A DNA stretch of 41,057 nucleotides from Pseudacidovorax intermedius. GTDB taxonomy: Bacteria; Pseudomonadota; Gammaproteobacteria; Burkholderiales; Burkholderiaceae_C. Below, piece after piece: positions 5,607 through 29,128 of the stretch. The position numbers were made by a program, and so were the translations under genes. The first letter of the stretch is position 1. Each line of letters begins with the position of its first letter. The DNA lies in contig NZ_LDSL01000053.1 of assembly GCF_001476815.1 (NCBI RefSeq), positions 1 to 41,057 on the forward strand. The letters run 5' to 3'. The notes under the pieces are model-generated. The model made no database searches, was not told the DNA's origin, and saw nothing but the letters and a program-made list of their open reading frames with translations.

Positions 5607-5814
5607 CGGGTGTCTCCTGCGCACGCTCCGTCGGCCGGGCGGCAGCAGCCATTGTGCCGGCCGTGCCTGCTTGTGGCGTCCTACAGGCGACATGCTGCAC
5701 CGCAGCTAACTTGCTGGCCTTGCCCAGGAGCGCACCAGGCCGGCGGTCGCCGGCCCTTCCCCTGTGGGGGCAAACCGCCCGGGCTCAGCCGCAATTCTTG
5801 AAGGAGCCCCCACC

Positions 5815-7956
<2,142 letters not shown>

Positions 7957-18665: not shown

Positions 18666-18875
18666 GGGCTTGGCGCAGGCGCCCGGCGCAGGGCGGGCCG
18701 GGGACCGGCGATTATCAGGGCTCGGCGCGCGACGCAGGGCTGCGCCACCACGGCCGTCCGCCACCGCGCCGAAGGCCGCGGCCCGCCAACACGGCCATCC
18801 GGATGACACGGCGCGCGCGGGCCATTGGCTACATTTGGGAACCCCGGCCCCTTCCCACGCCACACCCTTTCCCGC

Positions 18876-21008
18876 ATGCTGTCCGACGGCGAGATCCAGG
18901 CCCTGATGCGGGCCGAGCATGGCGACGCCTTCGCCGTGCTCGGCCCGCACCGCTTTCCCGAGGGACTGCGGGTGGCGGCGCTGCTGCCCGGCGCGCGGCA
19001 GGTGGCGGTTTTGCATGCGGCCTCCGGCGACCCGCTGGCGGTGCTGCAGCGCCAGGGCGGCTCGGACGTCTTCGCGGCCCTGGTGCCGGCGGCGCCCGCG
19101 CAGCTGGGCTACGTGCTGCACGTGGTGTGGGACGACGGCCATGCCTCGCGCCTGCACGATCCCTACCGCTTCGAACCCCTGCTGTCCGACCTGGACCTGT
19201 GGCTGCTGGCCGAGGGCACGCACTGCCGGCCCTTCGAGGTGCTGGGCGCCCATCCGCGTGTGCTCGACGGCGTCGCCGGCACGGCCTTCGCCGTCTGGGC
19301 ACCGCACGCGCGGCGGGTGTCGGTGGTGGGCGACTTCAACAACTGGGACGGCCGGCGCCACCTGTTGCGCCGGCGGCCCGAATGCGGCGTGTGGGAGATG
19401 TTCGTGCCGCACGTGCAGGCGGGCGATGCCTACCTCTACGAGATGCTCGGTGCCGACGGCCGGGTGCACTGCAAGGCCGACCCGTACGGCTTCGCCACCC
19501 GCGCGCGGCCCGGCAAGACGCCCGCCAGCGTGGTGAGCCTGCTGGCCGCGCCGGTGCCGATGGCGCCCGGGCGTGCGGCGGCCAACCGGCCGGACGCGCC
19601 GCTCAGCCTGTGCGAGGTGCCGCTGGATGCCGGGTGCCCCCAGGCCGGCGCCGACGGGCCGGGGGCCCGCACGCTGGCCGACACGCTGGTGCCGCACGCC
19701 GCCGCGCTCGGTTTCACCCACCTCGTGCTGACGATGGCGCACGACGCGGCCGTGGGCCTGTACGCGCCGCCGGCCTGCCTCGGCACGGCGGAAGACCTGC
19801 GCGCCTTCGTGCAGGCCGCCCATGCGGCCGGGCTGGGCGTGGTCCTGGACTGGTGGCCAGGCCGCTTTCCGGCCGACGTGCACGGCCTCGCGCGCTTCGA
19901 CGGCACGGCCCTGTACGAGCGCACGGATCCGCACCCGGACGTGCACCTCGCCCAGGGCACCCACGCCTTCGACTGGCGCCGGCCCGAGGTGCGCAACCAC
20001 CTGGCCGGGAATGCGCTGTACTGGCTGGAACGCTTCGGCATCGACGGCCTGCGCGTGCTGGGCGAGGGGGCTGTTCCTCCAACCGAGGACGGCCTGCCGC
20101 ACGGCGGATCGCAGGGCGACCACGCCGCGCATGGCGAGCCGCACGTCCTCGACTTCCTGCGGCAGCTCGGCGAGCGGGTGGCGGTCGAGCGCCCGGGCGC
20201 CGTGCTCTTCGCCGGACCCTCGCTCCCCGCCTCGCCGGCGACCCGACAGGCCGCAGAGGGCGGGCCGGGCCTCTACCACCCATGGAACGCAGCCTGGACG
20301 CGCGACACGCTCGCCCTGCTGCAGGCCGAACCGGCGCAACGCGGCGAACTGCACTGGCGGATCGTCGCCGGCCTGTCCGAGGCCCATGCCGGGCGGGCCG
20401 TGCTCGCCCTGCCGCACGAGGCGGTGGCGCGGGGCAGGAGCGCGCCCATCGACCGGCTGCCCGGCAGCGAGGCACAACCGCTCGCCGGACTGCGGCTGCT
20501 GCTGGGCTGGCAGTGGGCCTGTCCGGGCAAGAAGCTGCTGCCCCTGGGCGAGGAATGGGCACGGCACGACAGCGCGCCCGACCTCGACCGCCCAAACCCC
20601 GAACGCCTGTCCGACCCCGCCATCCAGCGCCTGCTGCGCGACCTCAATCGCCTGTACCGCCACTTCCCTGCGCTGTTCGAGCAGGACGGCGCGCCCCACG
20701 GCGTCGAATGGCTGGTGGCCGACGACACCGAACAGTCCGTCTTCGCCTTCGCCCGCCGCGCCGCCGACGGCGCCCTGCTGCTGGCGGTGGCCAACTTCCA
20801 GCCGGTGGCACGGCCCGACTACCGCCTGGGCGTGCCCCGGCCAGGCGCCTGGCGCGAGGTGCTCAGCACCGACAGCGAGCTGTATGGCGGCAGCGGCCTG
20901 GCCAATGCCCTGTCCAACACCGTGCCCGAACCCCTGCACGGCCAGGCGCAGCAGATCGCGATCACCGTGCCGCCGCTGGCGGTGAGCTGGTGGGTGCCGC
21001 ATGGCTGA
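18876..21008 (+). CDS. GlgB-like protein lacking catalytic residues (probable pseudoenzyme)
   Basis: A 710-residue, full-length homologue of 1,4-alpha-glucan branching enzyme: N1 domain, CBM48 (about 135-195, GDFNNWDG intact), GH13_9 barrel and C-terminal all-beta domain ([18 protein letters not shown]). Against the E. coli enzyme, the nucleophile Asp405 position in RVDAV is Leu395 (RVLGE). The acid/base Glu458 in AEEST is Gly447 (AGPS), Asp526 in LSHDEV is Glu515 (LPHEAV), and the region-I His of PGHFP is Arg330. The YEVHLGSW and HPFDGSWGYQ loops are also eroded or deleted. Structural segments ([42 protein letters not shown]) are well kept, and the frame is intact. The start at 18876 matches family N-termini but has no clear ribosome-binding site; a TTG at 18825 is an alternative. 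It heads the glycogen cluster and overlaps the next gene by eight bases. A glycogen-binding or scaffold role is inference. Confidence 0.85.
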
Positions 21009-21522
21009 ACCCAAGATCGTCATCATCGCGGGCCCCAACGGCGCCGGAAAGACGACGTTCGCGCGCGCCTTCCTGCCGCAGGAAGCCCAGGTGCTGCGCT
21101 TCATCAACGCCGACCTGATCGCCGCCGGCCTGTCGCCGTTCGCGCCAGAGGCCGCAGCGCTGCGCGCAGGCCGGCTGATGCTGGACGAGCTGGACGCCTG
21201 TACCCGGCGGCGCGAAAGCTTTGCATTCGAGACCACCCTGTCCGGCCTGGCCTATCTCCGTCACATCGGGGCGTGGCGGCGCGCCGGCTACCACGTCAGC
21301 CTGTTCTTCCTGGCCCTGCCCGATCCCGAACTGGCCGTGGCCCGCGTGGCGGAGCGCGTACGCCAGGGCGGGCACCACATTCCCGACGACGTGGTCCGGC
21401 GCCGCTTCCACGCCGGCCGCGACAATTTCGAGCAGCGCTACCGACAGGCGGTCGACGCCTGGGCGCTGTATGACAACTCGGGCGAAGAGCCCATGCTGAT
21501 CGACTGGGGAGAAGCACCGTGA
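21001..21522 (+). CDS. Zeta-toxin-family P-loop kinase-like protein
   Basis: A 173-residue single-domain P-loop protein. Walker A is GPNGAGKTT (11-19), followed by NADLI, with the Asp expected as general base, then FETTLSG and [18 protein letters not shown], with arginines placed like the phosphate-binding pair of zeta/PezT toxins. Characterised zeta toxins phosphorylate UDP-N-acetylglucosamine; many chromosomal relatives have unknown targets. Its ATG lies inside the last codons of the glgB-like gene (8-base overlap), and its TGA overlaps the GTG of the next small ORF. No epsilon-type antitoxin precedes it. Another nucleotide-sugar or small-molecule kinase is possible. Confidence 0.8.
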
Positions 21523-21704
21523 GCGCCAGACCCATTTCCCAAGCCCGGGACCGCGACCTTCCCGCGTCTCTGGCCGCCTTGCGCCGGGCGGCCGCTGCCG
21601 CGCGCGAGACTGCTGCGCGCACCGGCACCGCCATCGTCATCGTGCGCGACCGCAAGATGGTGCGCGTCGCCGGGCCGGCCCTGCAGCCGTCGCGCGAACG
21701 TTGA
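21519..21704 (+). CDS. Small ORF downstream of the zeta-like gene (possible partner or antitoxin)
   Basis: A 61-residue protein starting at GTG, overlapping the zeta-like stop as GTGA. It has an Ala/Arg-rich helix ([19 protein letters not shown]) and then a short strand-turn-strand, [15 protein letters not shown]. Small proteins of this helix plus IVxxDGKxV layout accompany zeta-like genes in other proteobacteria as far as I recall, which suggests a cognate partner. It has no DNA-binding motif. It ends eight bases before the likely glgX ATG, and a TTG at 21701 would even overlap its stop. The role is unproven. Confidence 0.65.
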
Positions 21705-21712
21705 ACGGCCGC

Positions 21713-23755
<2,043 letters not shown>

Positions 23756-23811: not shown

Positions 23812-25130
<1,319 letters not shown>

Positions 25131-25131
<1 letters not shown>

Positions 25132-26606
25132 TGCGCATCCTGCAAGTGAGCGCGGAACTGTTCCCGCTGCTCAAGACCGGCGGCCTGGCCGACGTGACCG
25201 GCGCCCTGCCGCTGGCCCTGGCCGCCGCCGGCGCCGACGCCCGGGTGCTGCTGCCCGCCTTTCCGGCCATCGCCGCCGGCGTCGCCGACGCCCGGCCCGT
25301 CGCTCCCTTCCACGCACCCTGGGGCGAGCCCGGGCTGCTGCGCTTCGGCTACATCGACGGCGGCGCCGGCCGGCTGCTGCCCACCTACCTGATCGATTCG
25401 CCCGGCCTGTACGACCGGCCCGGCAACCCGTACGAAGGCCCGGGCAAGCTGCCCTACGCCGACAACCACCGGCGTTTCGCCATGCTGGGCTGGGCCGCCG
25501 CGCTGCTGGCGCAGGGGCTGGACCCGCACTGGCGCCCCGACGTGCTGCATGCCCACGACTGGCATGCCGGCCTGGCGCCCGCCTACCTGGCCTTCGCGCG
25601 CCAGCGCGGCCAGGCCGGGGACGTGCGCAGCGTCTTCACCATCCACAACCTGGCCTACCAGGGCCAGTTCGGCGGCTGGGCCTTCGCCGAACTGGGCCTG
25701 CCGCCCGAGGCCTTCCAGGTCGAGGGGCTGGAATACCACGGCGACGTGTCCTTCATGAAGGCCGGCCTGTTCTATGCCGACCGCATCACCACCGTCAGCC
25801 CCAGCTACGCGCAGGAAATCCAGACGCCCGAGCAGGGCTTCGGCCTGGACGGCCTGCTGCGCGCGCGCAGCGGTGCGCTGCACGGCATCCTCAACGCGGT
25901 GGACGAGACGGTGTGGAGCCCCGCCACCGACACCCATCTGGCCCAGCGCTTTTCCATGCCCGAGGGTCGCCGCATGGCCGGCAAGGCCCGCTGCAAGGCG
26001 GCGCTGCAGCACGAGCTGGGCCTGGCGGTGGACGAGCGGGCGCCGCTGTTCATCGTCGTCAGCCGCCTGACCGAGCAGAAGGGCCTGCACCTGGTGCTCG
26101 GCGGCATCGACGCGCTGCTCGAACACGGCGGCCAGCTGGCCGTGCTGGGCAGCGGCGACGGCTGGATGGAACAGGCCTTCCGCGAGCGCGCCGCCGCGCA
26201 GCCCCGGCGCATCGCCGCGCGCATCGGCTACGACGAGCCGCTGGCCCACCGGCTCTTCGGCGGCGCCGACGTGGTGCTGGTGCCTTCGCGCTTCGAACCC
26301 TGCGGCCTGACGCAGATGTACGGCCTGCGCTACGGCGCGCTGCCGCTGGTGCACCGCGTGGGCGGCCTGGCCGACACCGTGGTCGACTGCGCCCTGGAGA
26401 ACCTGGCCGACGGCAGCGCCACCGGCTTCGTCTTCGAGCGCTTCGACGACGACGCCTATGCCCGCGCCCTGCGCCGCGCCTTCGCCCTGTACGGCCGGCC
26501 GGCCGACTGGCGCCGGGTGCGCGCCACCGCCATGCGCCGCCCCGCCGACTGGGACACCGCCGCCGCCGGCTACCTGGCCGTCTACCAGCAGGCGCTGGCC
26601 GCCTAG
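25131..26606 (+). CDS. glgA: Glycogen synthase (ADP-glucose dependent)
   Basis: A 491-residue GT5 glycosyltransferase that extends alpha-1,4-glucan from ADP-glucose. The N-terminal KTGGL motif is at residues 15-19. [32 protein letters not shown] and the catalytic C-terminal [17 protein letters not shown] are all present. The length is standard. TGATG overlap with glgC implies coupled translation. Confidence 0.95.

Positions 26607-26659: not shown

Positions 26660-29128
<2,469 letters not shown>

Follow-up and report, generated by a model that had tools for sequence, protein, structure and literature searches.

The first gene of a glycogen operon in Pseudacidovorax intermedius encodes a full-length GlgB homologue that has lost the catalytic residues of a branching enzyme, and we consider it rather likely that it has been retained as a pseudoenzyme that binds glucan without catalysis. 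Change is concentrated in the catalytic domain while the N1 and CBM48 domains are under purifying selection—a pattern that is not uniform decay. The loss of catalytic residues is lineage-specific, being confined to the lineage of the DNA analysed here (a stretch of 41,057 nucleotides, hereafter termed the window).

Residue losses, predicted fold and operon context

The glgB open reading frame (18876..21008; all window features given here lie on the + strand) comprises 710 codons plus stop and runs from the ATG at 18876 to the TGA at 21006-21008 without a single internal stop—an open frame of 710 residues, as the first-pass annotation had it. Pfam and Foldseek recover the domain order of a branching enzyme: N1 (GlgB_N, PF22019; residues 1-105, 18876..19190), under strong purifying selection; a conserved CBM48 (N2, PF02922; residues 106-209, 19191..19502); a degenerate (β/α)8 catalytic barrel (residues 212-577, 19509..20606); and a C-terminal all-β domain region under partial constraint (residues 580-710, 20613..21005, with PF02806 at 612-708). 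Residues were mapped on an alignment that included the E. coli GlgB core (1m7x) and 29 genus GlgBs. The nucleophile Asp405 of E. coli corresponds to Leu395 (codon 20058..20060), the acid/base Glu458 to Gly447 (20214..20216), Asp526 to Glu515 (20418..20420) and His340 of region I to Arg330 (19863..19865), so that the catalytic triad is lost; all four residue calls of the first-pass annotation proved exact. The exchange of the third carboxylate for Glu is conservative. Additionally, a nine-residue loop (HPFDGSWGY) has been deleted, taking the Tyr300 equivalent with it; the junction of this 9-codon deletion lies at residues 290/291 (19743..19748). The equivalents of Asp335, Arg403 and His525 are retained as D325, R393 and H514, and the candidate glucan-binding residues Trp157 and Trp173 of CBM48 are kept and invariant in 12 sequences.

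Profile scores follow the same division between domains. Compared with one sister-species GlgB (L007), the window protein scores 94.7 vs 102.9 bits for GlgB_N, 91.7 vs 90.8 for CBM48 and 81.7 vs 87.4 for alpha-amylase_C, and the Pfam alpha-amylase catalytic domain reaches 23.1 bits vs 62.8 and 59.9 in two sisters (L007 and L009). The branching-enzyme model TIGR01515 gives 503.7 bits (937.6 in L007), and the protein would probably still be called a branching enzyme by an annotation pipeline because this score exceeds the cut-off of 463.95; it falls below the NF003811 cut-off (479.2 vs 741 bits). The protein is a homologue of an enzyme with the catalytic residues lost, as a pseudoenzyme is, and it combines an open frame with purifying selection on parts of the protein, weakly so for the C domain (p=0.19 vs ω of 1). 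As to the marks of a pseudogene, stops and net frameshifts number 0 in 710 codons—although the nucleotide alignment is compatible with a few short frameshifts in the barrel that compensate one another—and amino-acid constraint has not been lost uniformly.

An AlphaFold2 model built from 12 sequences had a mean pLDDT of 73.4 and a pTM of 0.75, with mostly high confidence for N1, CBM48 and C. Seven segments in the barrel region (252-260, 290-292, 342-345, 348-361, 397-420, 471-520 and 558-573) were predicted with a pLDDT below 50. The Xenophilus azovorans orthologue, modelled from the same rows as a control, reached 82.7 and a pTM of 0.85, with three low segments (286-298, 525-527 and 568-581). 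The top Foldseek match to the window model was GlgB 3k1d, with a TM score of 0.81 of the query.

Contig C245, which carries the window, belongs to a 5.55 Mb draft genome in 295 contigs (99.97% complete, 0.22% contaminated). The operon consists, in this order, of glgB, a zeta-toxin-like gene, glgX, glgC, glgA and glgP, with leuS divergent. A TACATTTGG block upstream of the glgB start (18830..18838), common to all five sister species, may be part of a promoter. In genomes G004 and G013 (L049 and L050), the stretch upstream of glgB is unlike the leuS-side sequence of the window's genome, G012, G011 and G008, and by eye resembles the tail of a different gene; nonetheless, the TACATTTGG block is retained close to the start. 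The zeta-toxin-like P-loop gene (21001..21522; PF06414, 46.8 bits) begins with an ATG that overlaps the glgB stop. It is followed, before glgX, by a 61-codon ORF noted by eye—the two together spanning 21001-21704. G011 carries a homologue of the zeta-toxin-like gene along most of its length and G012 a truncated version; in G004, G013, G008 and G014, which are without the zeta-toxin-like gene, glgB and glgX nearly adjoin. The debranching gene glgX (21713..23755; TIGR02100, 847.7 bits) has intact catalytic motifs by alignment, and the idea that it too is dead was rejected on this ground. The operon continues with glgC (23812..25131; TIGR02091, 501.4 bits; start codon assumed), glgA (25131..26606; NF001899, 658.4 bits) and glgP (26660..29128; TIGR02093, 1182 bits). 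A second GlgX (5764-7956; TIGR02100, 1046.7 bits) is encoded in the window outside the glg operon. A similar arrangement, a glgBXCAP operon plus extra glgB2 and glgX2 genes, is described for the betaproteobacterium Variovorax paradoxus in the available part of PMC4301808.

Distribution among relatives and the second GlgB

To place the gene among its relatives, we read GlgB loci across the genus, the family and beyond. Each of the 15 genus genomes searched, including that of the window, has a GlgB match, and all eight marker residues are present in each of the 14 other orthologues—the alignment with related genomes that had been suggested as a check. The same eight residues are found in 15/15 second GlgBs. 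A dead GlgB copy is known from one genome and is shared by none of the other genomes examined. Of 60 genomes sampled from the family, 33 gave a match; 30 loci were read, including the window's own, with four more GlgB-like matches outside the window's genome left out, and 29 of the 29 other loci were canonical. Moreover, six query peptides were used to scan the genomes of 84,980 species and returned no relative above about 55% identity; this approach needs exact peptides and may miss records near the window's genome. In a Chromatiaceae metagenome-assembled genome, we observed a GlgB (L046:5382-8150) with an intact triad in which H340 is Phe and Y300 is Leu.

The window's genome carries a second GlgB of its own, which, like the 14 intact orthologues, lay beyond the view of the first-pass annotation. 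It has all marker residues and is constrained (ω 0.16-0.19 over 612 codons), with a dS of 0.40-0.46 to the sisters; its frame is still open where contig C19 ends. In the sister genome G004, the second GlgB adjoins GlgE, TreS-maltokinase and TreZ. A Pfam N/S model found no GlgE in the window's genome, but its absence was rejected when a protein search matched most of GlgE (query residues 137-675, 89% identical) at the start of contig C27; the first part of GlgE probably lies in an assembly gap, since the match begins the contig. TreZ is located further along the same contig, and because GlgE opens C27 and TreZ follows, the second GlgB would appear to occupy the same GlgE/TreS locus as in G004.

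Loss of catalytic residues was also encountered far from the genus. A search of 41 genomes around a Defluviicoccus record with an aberrant GlgB gave matches in 22; we read 30 loci, with fourteen more full-length or nearly full-length matches outside them, some of which were read via other loci. Ten of the 30 (L079-L088, at G019:C22, G020:C45, G022:C33, G015:C165, G021:C1, G027:C311, G026:C80, G025:C29, G023:C138 and G028:C52) are full-length GlgBs of Defluviicoccus-like Rhodospirillales that have lost D526 (10/10), D405 (8/10) and E458 (2/10), and these proteins are presumably inactive. L079 and L080 hardly differ, and D405 and E458 are both retained in L087 and L088. All ten fall into a single clade (support 100) that is separate from the window protein, and the loss there is of independent origin. 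Both cases share a full-length GlgB in which D526 and, mostly, D405 are lost; the Rhodospirillales proteins differ in being common to ten genomes, with barrels 65% identical within the clade, and in having Glu458 changed in only 2/10. A canonical GlgB was also read in 8 of the 10 genomes. One aberrant gene (L140) adjoins glgP and glgA, and at L139 none of the five neighbouring ORFs scanned is a glg gene. The available part of a study of Defluviicoccus genomics (PMC9041414) reports multiple copies of glycogen genes and does not mention residue loss. Two ORFs of 1220 and 1255 aa (L068 and L070; G019:C21 and G015:C189) carry at the N terminus a truncated, degenerate GlgB-like part, fused to a complete GlgB that has every marker residue.

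Domain-graded selection and composition drift

The five closest species constitute the sister group of the window's genome, the five-species clade having support of 100 (glgX+glgC+glgA+glgP). The window GlgB is 63-64% identical to the GlgBs of these sisters, which share 93-98% among themselves. Identity to the sisters is 96-98% for holA and leuS, 95-96% for glgC, 93-94% for glgP, 89-91% for glgA and 87% for glgX, where the leuS, glgA and glgP values include upstream codons (26, 160 and 26, respectively) and the glgA figure is the least clean. Among the seven genes compared, gross change is found in glgB only; a lineage-wide acceleration was rejected on holA and leuS. Nei-Gojobori dN/dS is 0.62-0.69 for the window GlgB vs the sisters and 0.09-0.11 in five sister pairs. 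By domain, mean dN to the sisters is 0.066 for N1, 0.154 for CBM48, 0.400 for the barrel and 0.159 for C, and the corresponding dS values are 0.409, 0.316, 0.442 and 0.327. Barrel dN nearly equals dS, and its release is therefore probably old relative to the window branch, with N1 constrained throughout the same time.

The profile of dN/dS along the gene, likewise proposed beforehand, was resolved with a branch codon model of our own (MG94-type, F3x4, fixed topology) on 12 sequences; this model and the site test below used 11 of the 14 other orthologues, with G005, G009 and G010 left out. Branch ω (background in parentheses) was 0.074 (0.152) for N1, 0.275 (0.145) for CBM48, 0.585 (0.087) for the barrel and 0.360 (0.128) for C, the N1 value resting on 105 codons; non-stationary GC may bias these estimates. 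Compared with an ω of 1, N1 (p=3.6e-4), CBM48 (p=0.012) and the barrel (p=0.006) differ and C is indistinguishable (p=0.19). Relative to background, the barrel (p=1.7e-16) and C (p=0.039) are elevated and N1 is not different. The branch length under this model is 1.84 for the barrel vs 0.80-1.09 in the other domains.

A site-wise comparison points the same way. Positions fixed in the five sisters were split by their invariance in the 11 orthologues: invariant sites have changed at 1/53 in N1, 6/66 in CBM48, 118/255 in the barrel and 10/66 in C, and outgroup-variable sites at 5/38, 13/32, 43/79 and 17/50, respectively. The two classes differ in CBM48 (p=6e-4) and C (p=0.026), with the same trend in N1 (p=0.078); in the barrel they are alike (p=0.25), as expected if the constraint of an enzyme is gone. 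Against a set of 30 references, change or deletion affects 84 of 160 fully invariant sites in the barrel (53%) vs 83 of the 121 least conserved (69%), and we therefore see some residual constraint on the barrel; in CBM48, only 1/27 fully invariant sites has changed. Amino-acid changes from the sister majority affect 182 of the 362 barrel codons (213 expected) and are clustered, none of 5000 permutations reaching the observed variance, with 2/20 changed in residues 374-393, 4/20 in 534-553 and 32/40 in 394-433.

Substitutions on the window branch run from A/T to G/C: at codon position 1, 67 of 161 A/T sites have changed vs 24 of 466 G/C sites. Relative to two sisters, GC1/GC2 in the barrel rose from 0.69/0.45 to 0.83/0.56; the rise is smaller in C and nil or barely any in N1 and CBM48. 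We read this as released codons drifting toward the GC equilibrium of the genome. The 493 substitutions in the window glgB include no in-frame stop, although random placement of the observed changes would yield 4.9 stops over the whole gene (P(0)=0.006) and 2.9 over the barrel alone (P(0)=0.04). Since A/T-to-G/C substitutions make few stops, the open frame counts as moderate evidence only. The same excess explains why stops in alternative frames are fewer than in the orthologues, and an overprinted gene was rejected. In-frame indels were dropped as a statistical test, because indels necessarily come out as whole codons in a protein-guided alignment.

These results refine what the first-pass annotation had argued, namely that a preserved scaffold with loss concentrated at the active site speaks for a selected role rather than random decay. 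The scaffold is indeed conserved in N1, CBM48 and C, but the barrel is largely released; loss is concentrated in the catalytic domain, with the barrel scaffold eroded together with the active site. The case for a selected role gains from the non-uniform change and the purifying selection on N1 and CBM48, and less from the open frame.

Readings of the gene and known systems

The reading that we favour would make the protein a lineage-specific pseudoenzyme derived from the branching enzyme of a glgBXCAP operon. Branching would have been taken over by the second GlgB in its putative GlgE/TreS locus, and this activity would free the barrel of the first GlgB from selection, with N1, CBM48 and, more weakly, the C domain remaining under purifying selection. 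From that selection it follows that the protein most likely still binds α-glucan and acts non-catalytically. By analogy with plant PTST and ISA2, it could assist GlgA, GlgX or GlgP as an adaptor or as a subunit that binds chains, the choice among these three partners being a guess. Counting against the binder reading are the single genome with a dead copy, the mere 105 codons behind N1, the C-domain ω close enough to 1 to be indistinguishable from it, and a barrel that is not fully neutral and has the longest model branch. In addition, the dN of glgX is 0.08 vs 0.023-0.031 among the sisters and that of glgP 0.029 vs 0.001-0.005, a mild acceleration that fits operon-wide relaxation; and the CBM48 Trp residues are dispensable in plant MKIP1, according to the available part of PMC13172542.

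The same acceleration of glgX and glgP would suit a fading relic with no function left, whose frame survives by polarity on glgX-glgC-glgA-glgP plus luck. This account, which we hold to be improbable though serious, draws on the overlap of the zeta-like start with the glgB stop, through which downstream translation may be coupled, on the constraint of glgC, glgA and glgP (ω 0.06-0.18 to the sisters) and on a substitution drift that makes stops rare. Yet polarity guards a frame and not amino acids, and N1 and CBM48 evolve at an ω of 0.07 and 0.28; these two domains kept 112/119 invariant sites, whereas the barrel lost 118/255, and the gene-wide probability of no stop is 0.006 under random placement. 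That the protein has specialised for a different catalytic role, its active site having moved, is very unlikely: Glu515 and the equivalents of Asp335, Arg403 and His525 remain, and some barrel segments are conserved (residues 374-393, 2/20 changed), but the nucleophile is Leu and the acid/base Gly, orthologue-invariant barrel sites changed no less often than the variable sites, the pLDDT is below 50 for residues 397-420 and 471-520, and a barrel ω below 1 gives no indication of positive selection.

Recombination was weighed as well. Replacement of the barrel from a distant, already degenerate GlgB could account for a barrel dS of 0.44 and branch length of 1.84, compared with 0.32-0.33 and 0.80-1.01 for CBM48 and C. 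However, the dS of N1 (0.41) is nearly as high as that of the barrel, sliding dS moves between 0.24 and 0.57 with no abrupt step along the gene, and a similar dS to the sisters is seen for the second GlgB (0.40-0.46). Moreover, the gene as a whole clusters with the five sisters (support 100), and the six exact peptides, which may miss near records, returned no relative above about 55% identity in 84,980 species' genomes. We judged such a mosaic import to be very unlikely, mainly on dS and the tree. An assembly or contamination artefact, which a draft in 295 contigs might invite, has hardly any likelihood given 99.97% completeness and 0.22% contamination, syntenic neighbours 87-98% identical to the sisters, and 493 substitutions without an in-frame stop, which are unlike sequencing error.

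Compared with type 1 GlgB of GH13_9 (N1-CBM48-barrel-C), the window protein shares domain order, operon position, orthology and a TIGR01515 score above cut-off, and differs in the loss of the triad, His340 and Tyr300, the released barrel and the NF003811 score below cut-off. The first-pass annotation knew of no GlgB pseudoenzyme heading a glycogen operon. Among the matches listed in open-licence PubMed Central (searched mostly by title and abstract start), there was no bacterial stand-alone GlgB pseudoenzyme, and among the open-licence matches listed there was none in which an inactive GlgB heads an otherwise intact glgBXCAP operon; inactive branching enzymes as such do have precedents. The plant class III branching enzyme MKIP1 (AtBE1), as the accessible part of PMC13172542 describes it, carries a CBM48, has lost triad residues and is inactive, with a non-catalytic role. 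The window protein resembles it as a CBM48-bearing branching enzyme with lost triad residues, its own role being predicted from sequence. On the same partial account, MKIP1 differs in its plant origin, about 30% identity to canonical enzymes, an extra region of about 150 residues, a role in splicing and a retained acid/base Glu; in the window, only one bacterial lineage shows the loss, and glgB still stands in its operon. In plants, moreover, the excerpted PMC12510319 and PMC6243121 describe ISA2 and PTST as non-catalytic GH13 or CBM48 proteins in α-glucan synthesis beside active enzymes. Their partners are known, ISA2 derives from a debranching enzyme and PTST is a coiled-coil protein with CBM48, according to these excerpts, and any partner of the window GlgB is conjectural. 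As in this group, candidate glucan-binding Trp residues of CBM48 are present, W157 and W173, which would be the counterparts of the W151/W171 pair named for MKIP1. A bacterial case is the GlgA-GlgB fusion of Waddliaceae/Criblamydiaceae, with an inactive GlgB domain (PMC11046441, available in part): here too a bacterial GlgB was inactivated while a GlgB2 with GlgE remains. That case involves a gene fusion and the loss of glgC and glgP, as far as the accessible text goes, and the window has a stand-alone ORF in an intact operon.

On this basis, we tentatively propose—with less assurance than the reading of the window protein itself—that bacteria with at least two GlgBs may repeatedly convert one copy into a subunit that takes part in glycogen synthesis by binding glucan, without catalysis, comparable to ISA2 and PTST. 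The window would then represent an early stage (N1, CBM48 and C kept, barrel released, one species) and the Defluviicoccus-like clade an old, stabilised one. With five sister species whose catalytic residues are intact as controls for the window GlgB, the reason why cells keep a dead GH13 enzyme becomes a testable question in a bacterium. Should such losses recur in a lineage that accumulates glycogen, they would indicate that glycogen control has a non-catalytic layer, one hidden by annotation because the window protein passes the TIGR01515 cut-off.
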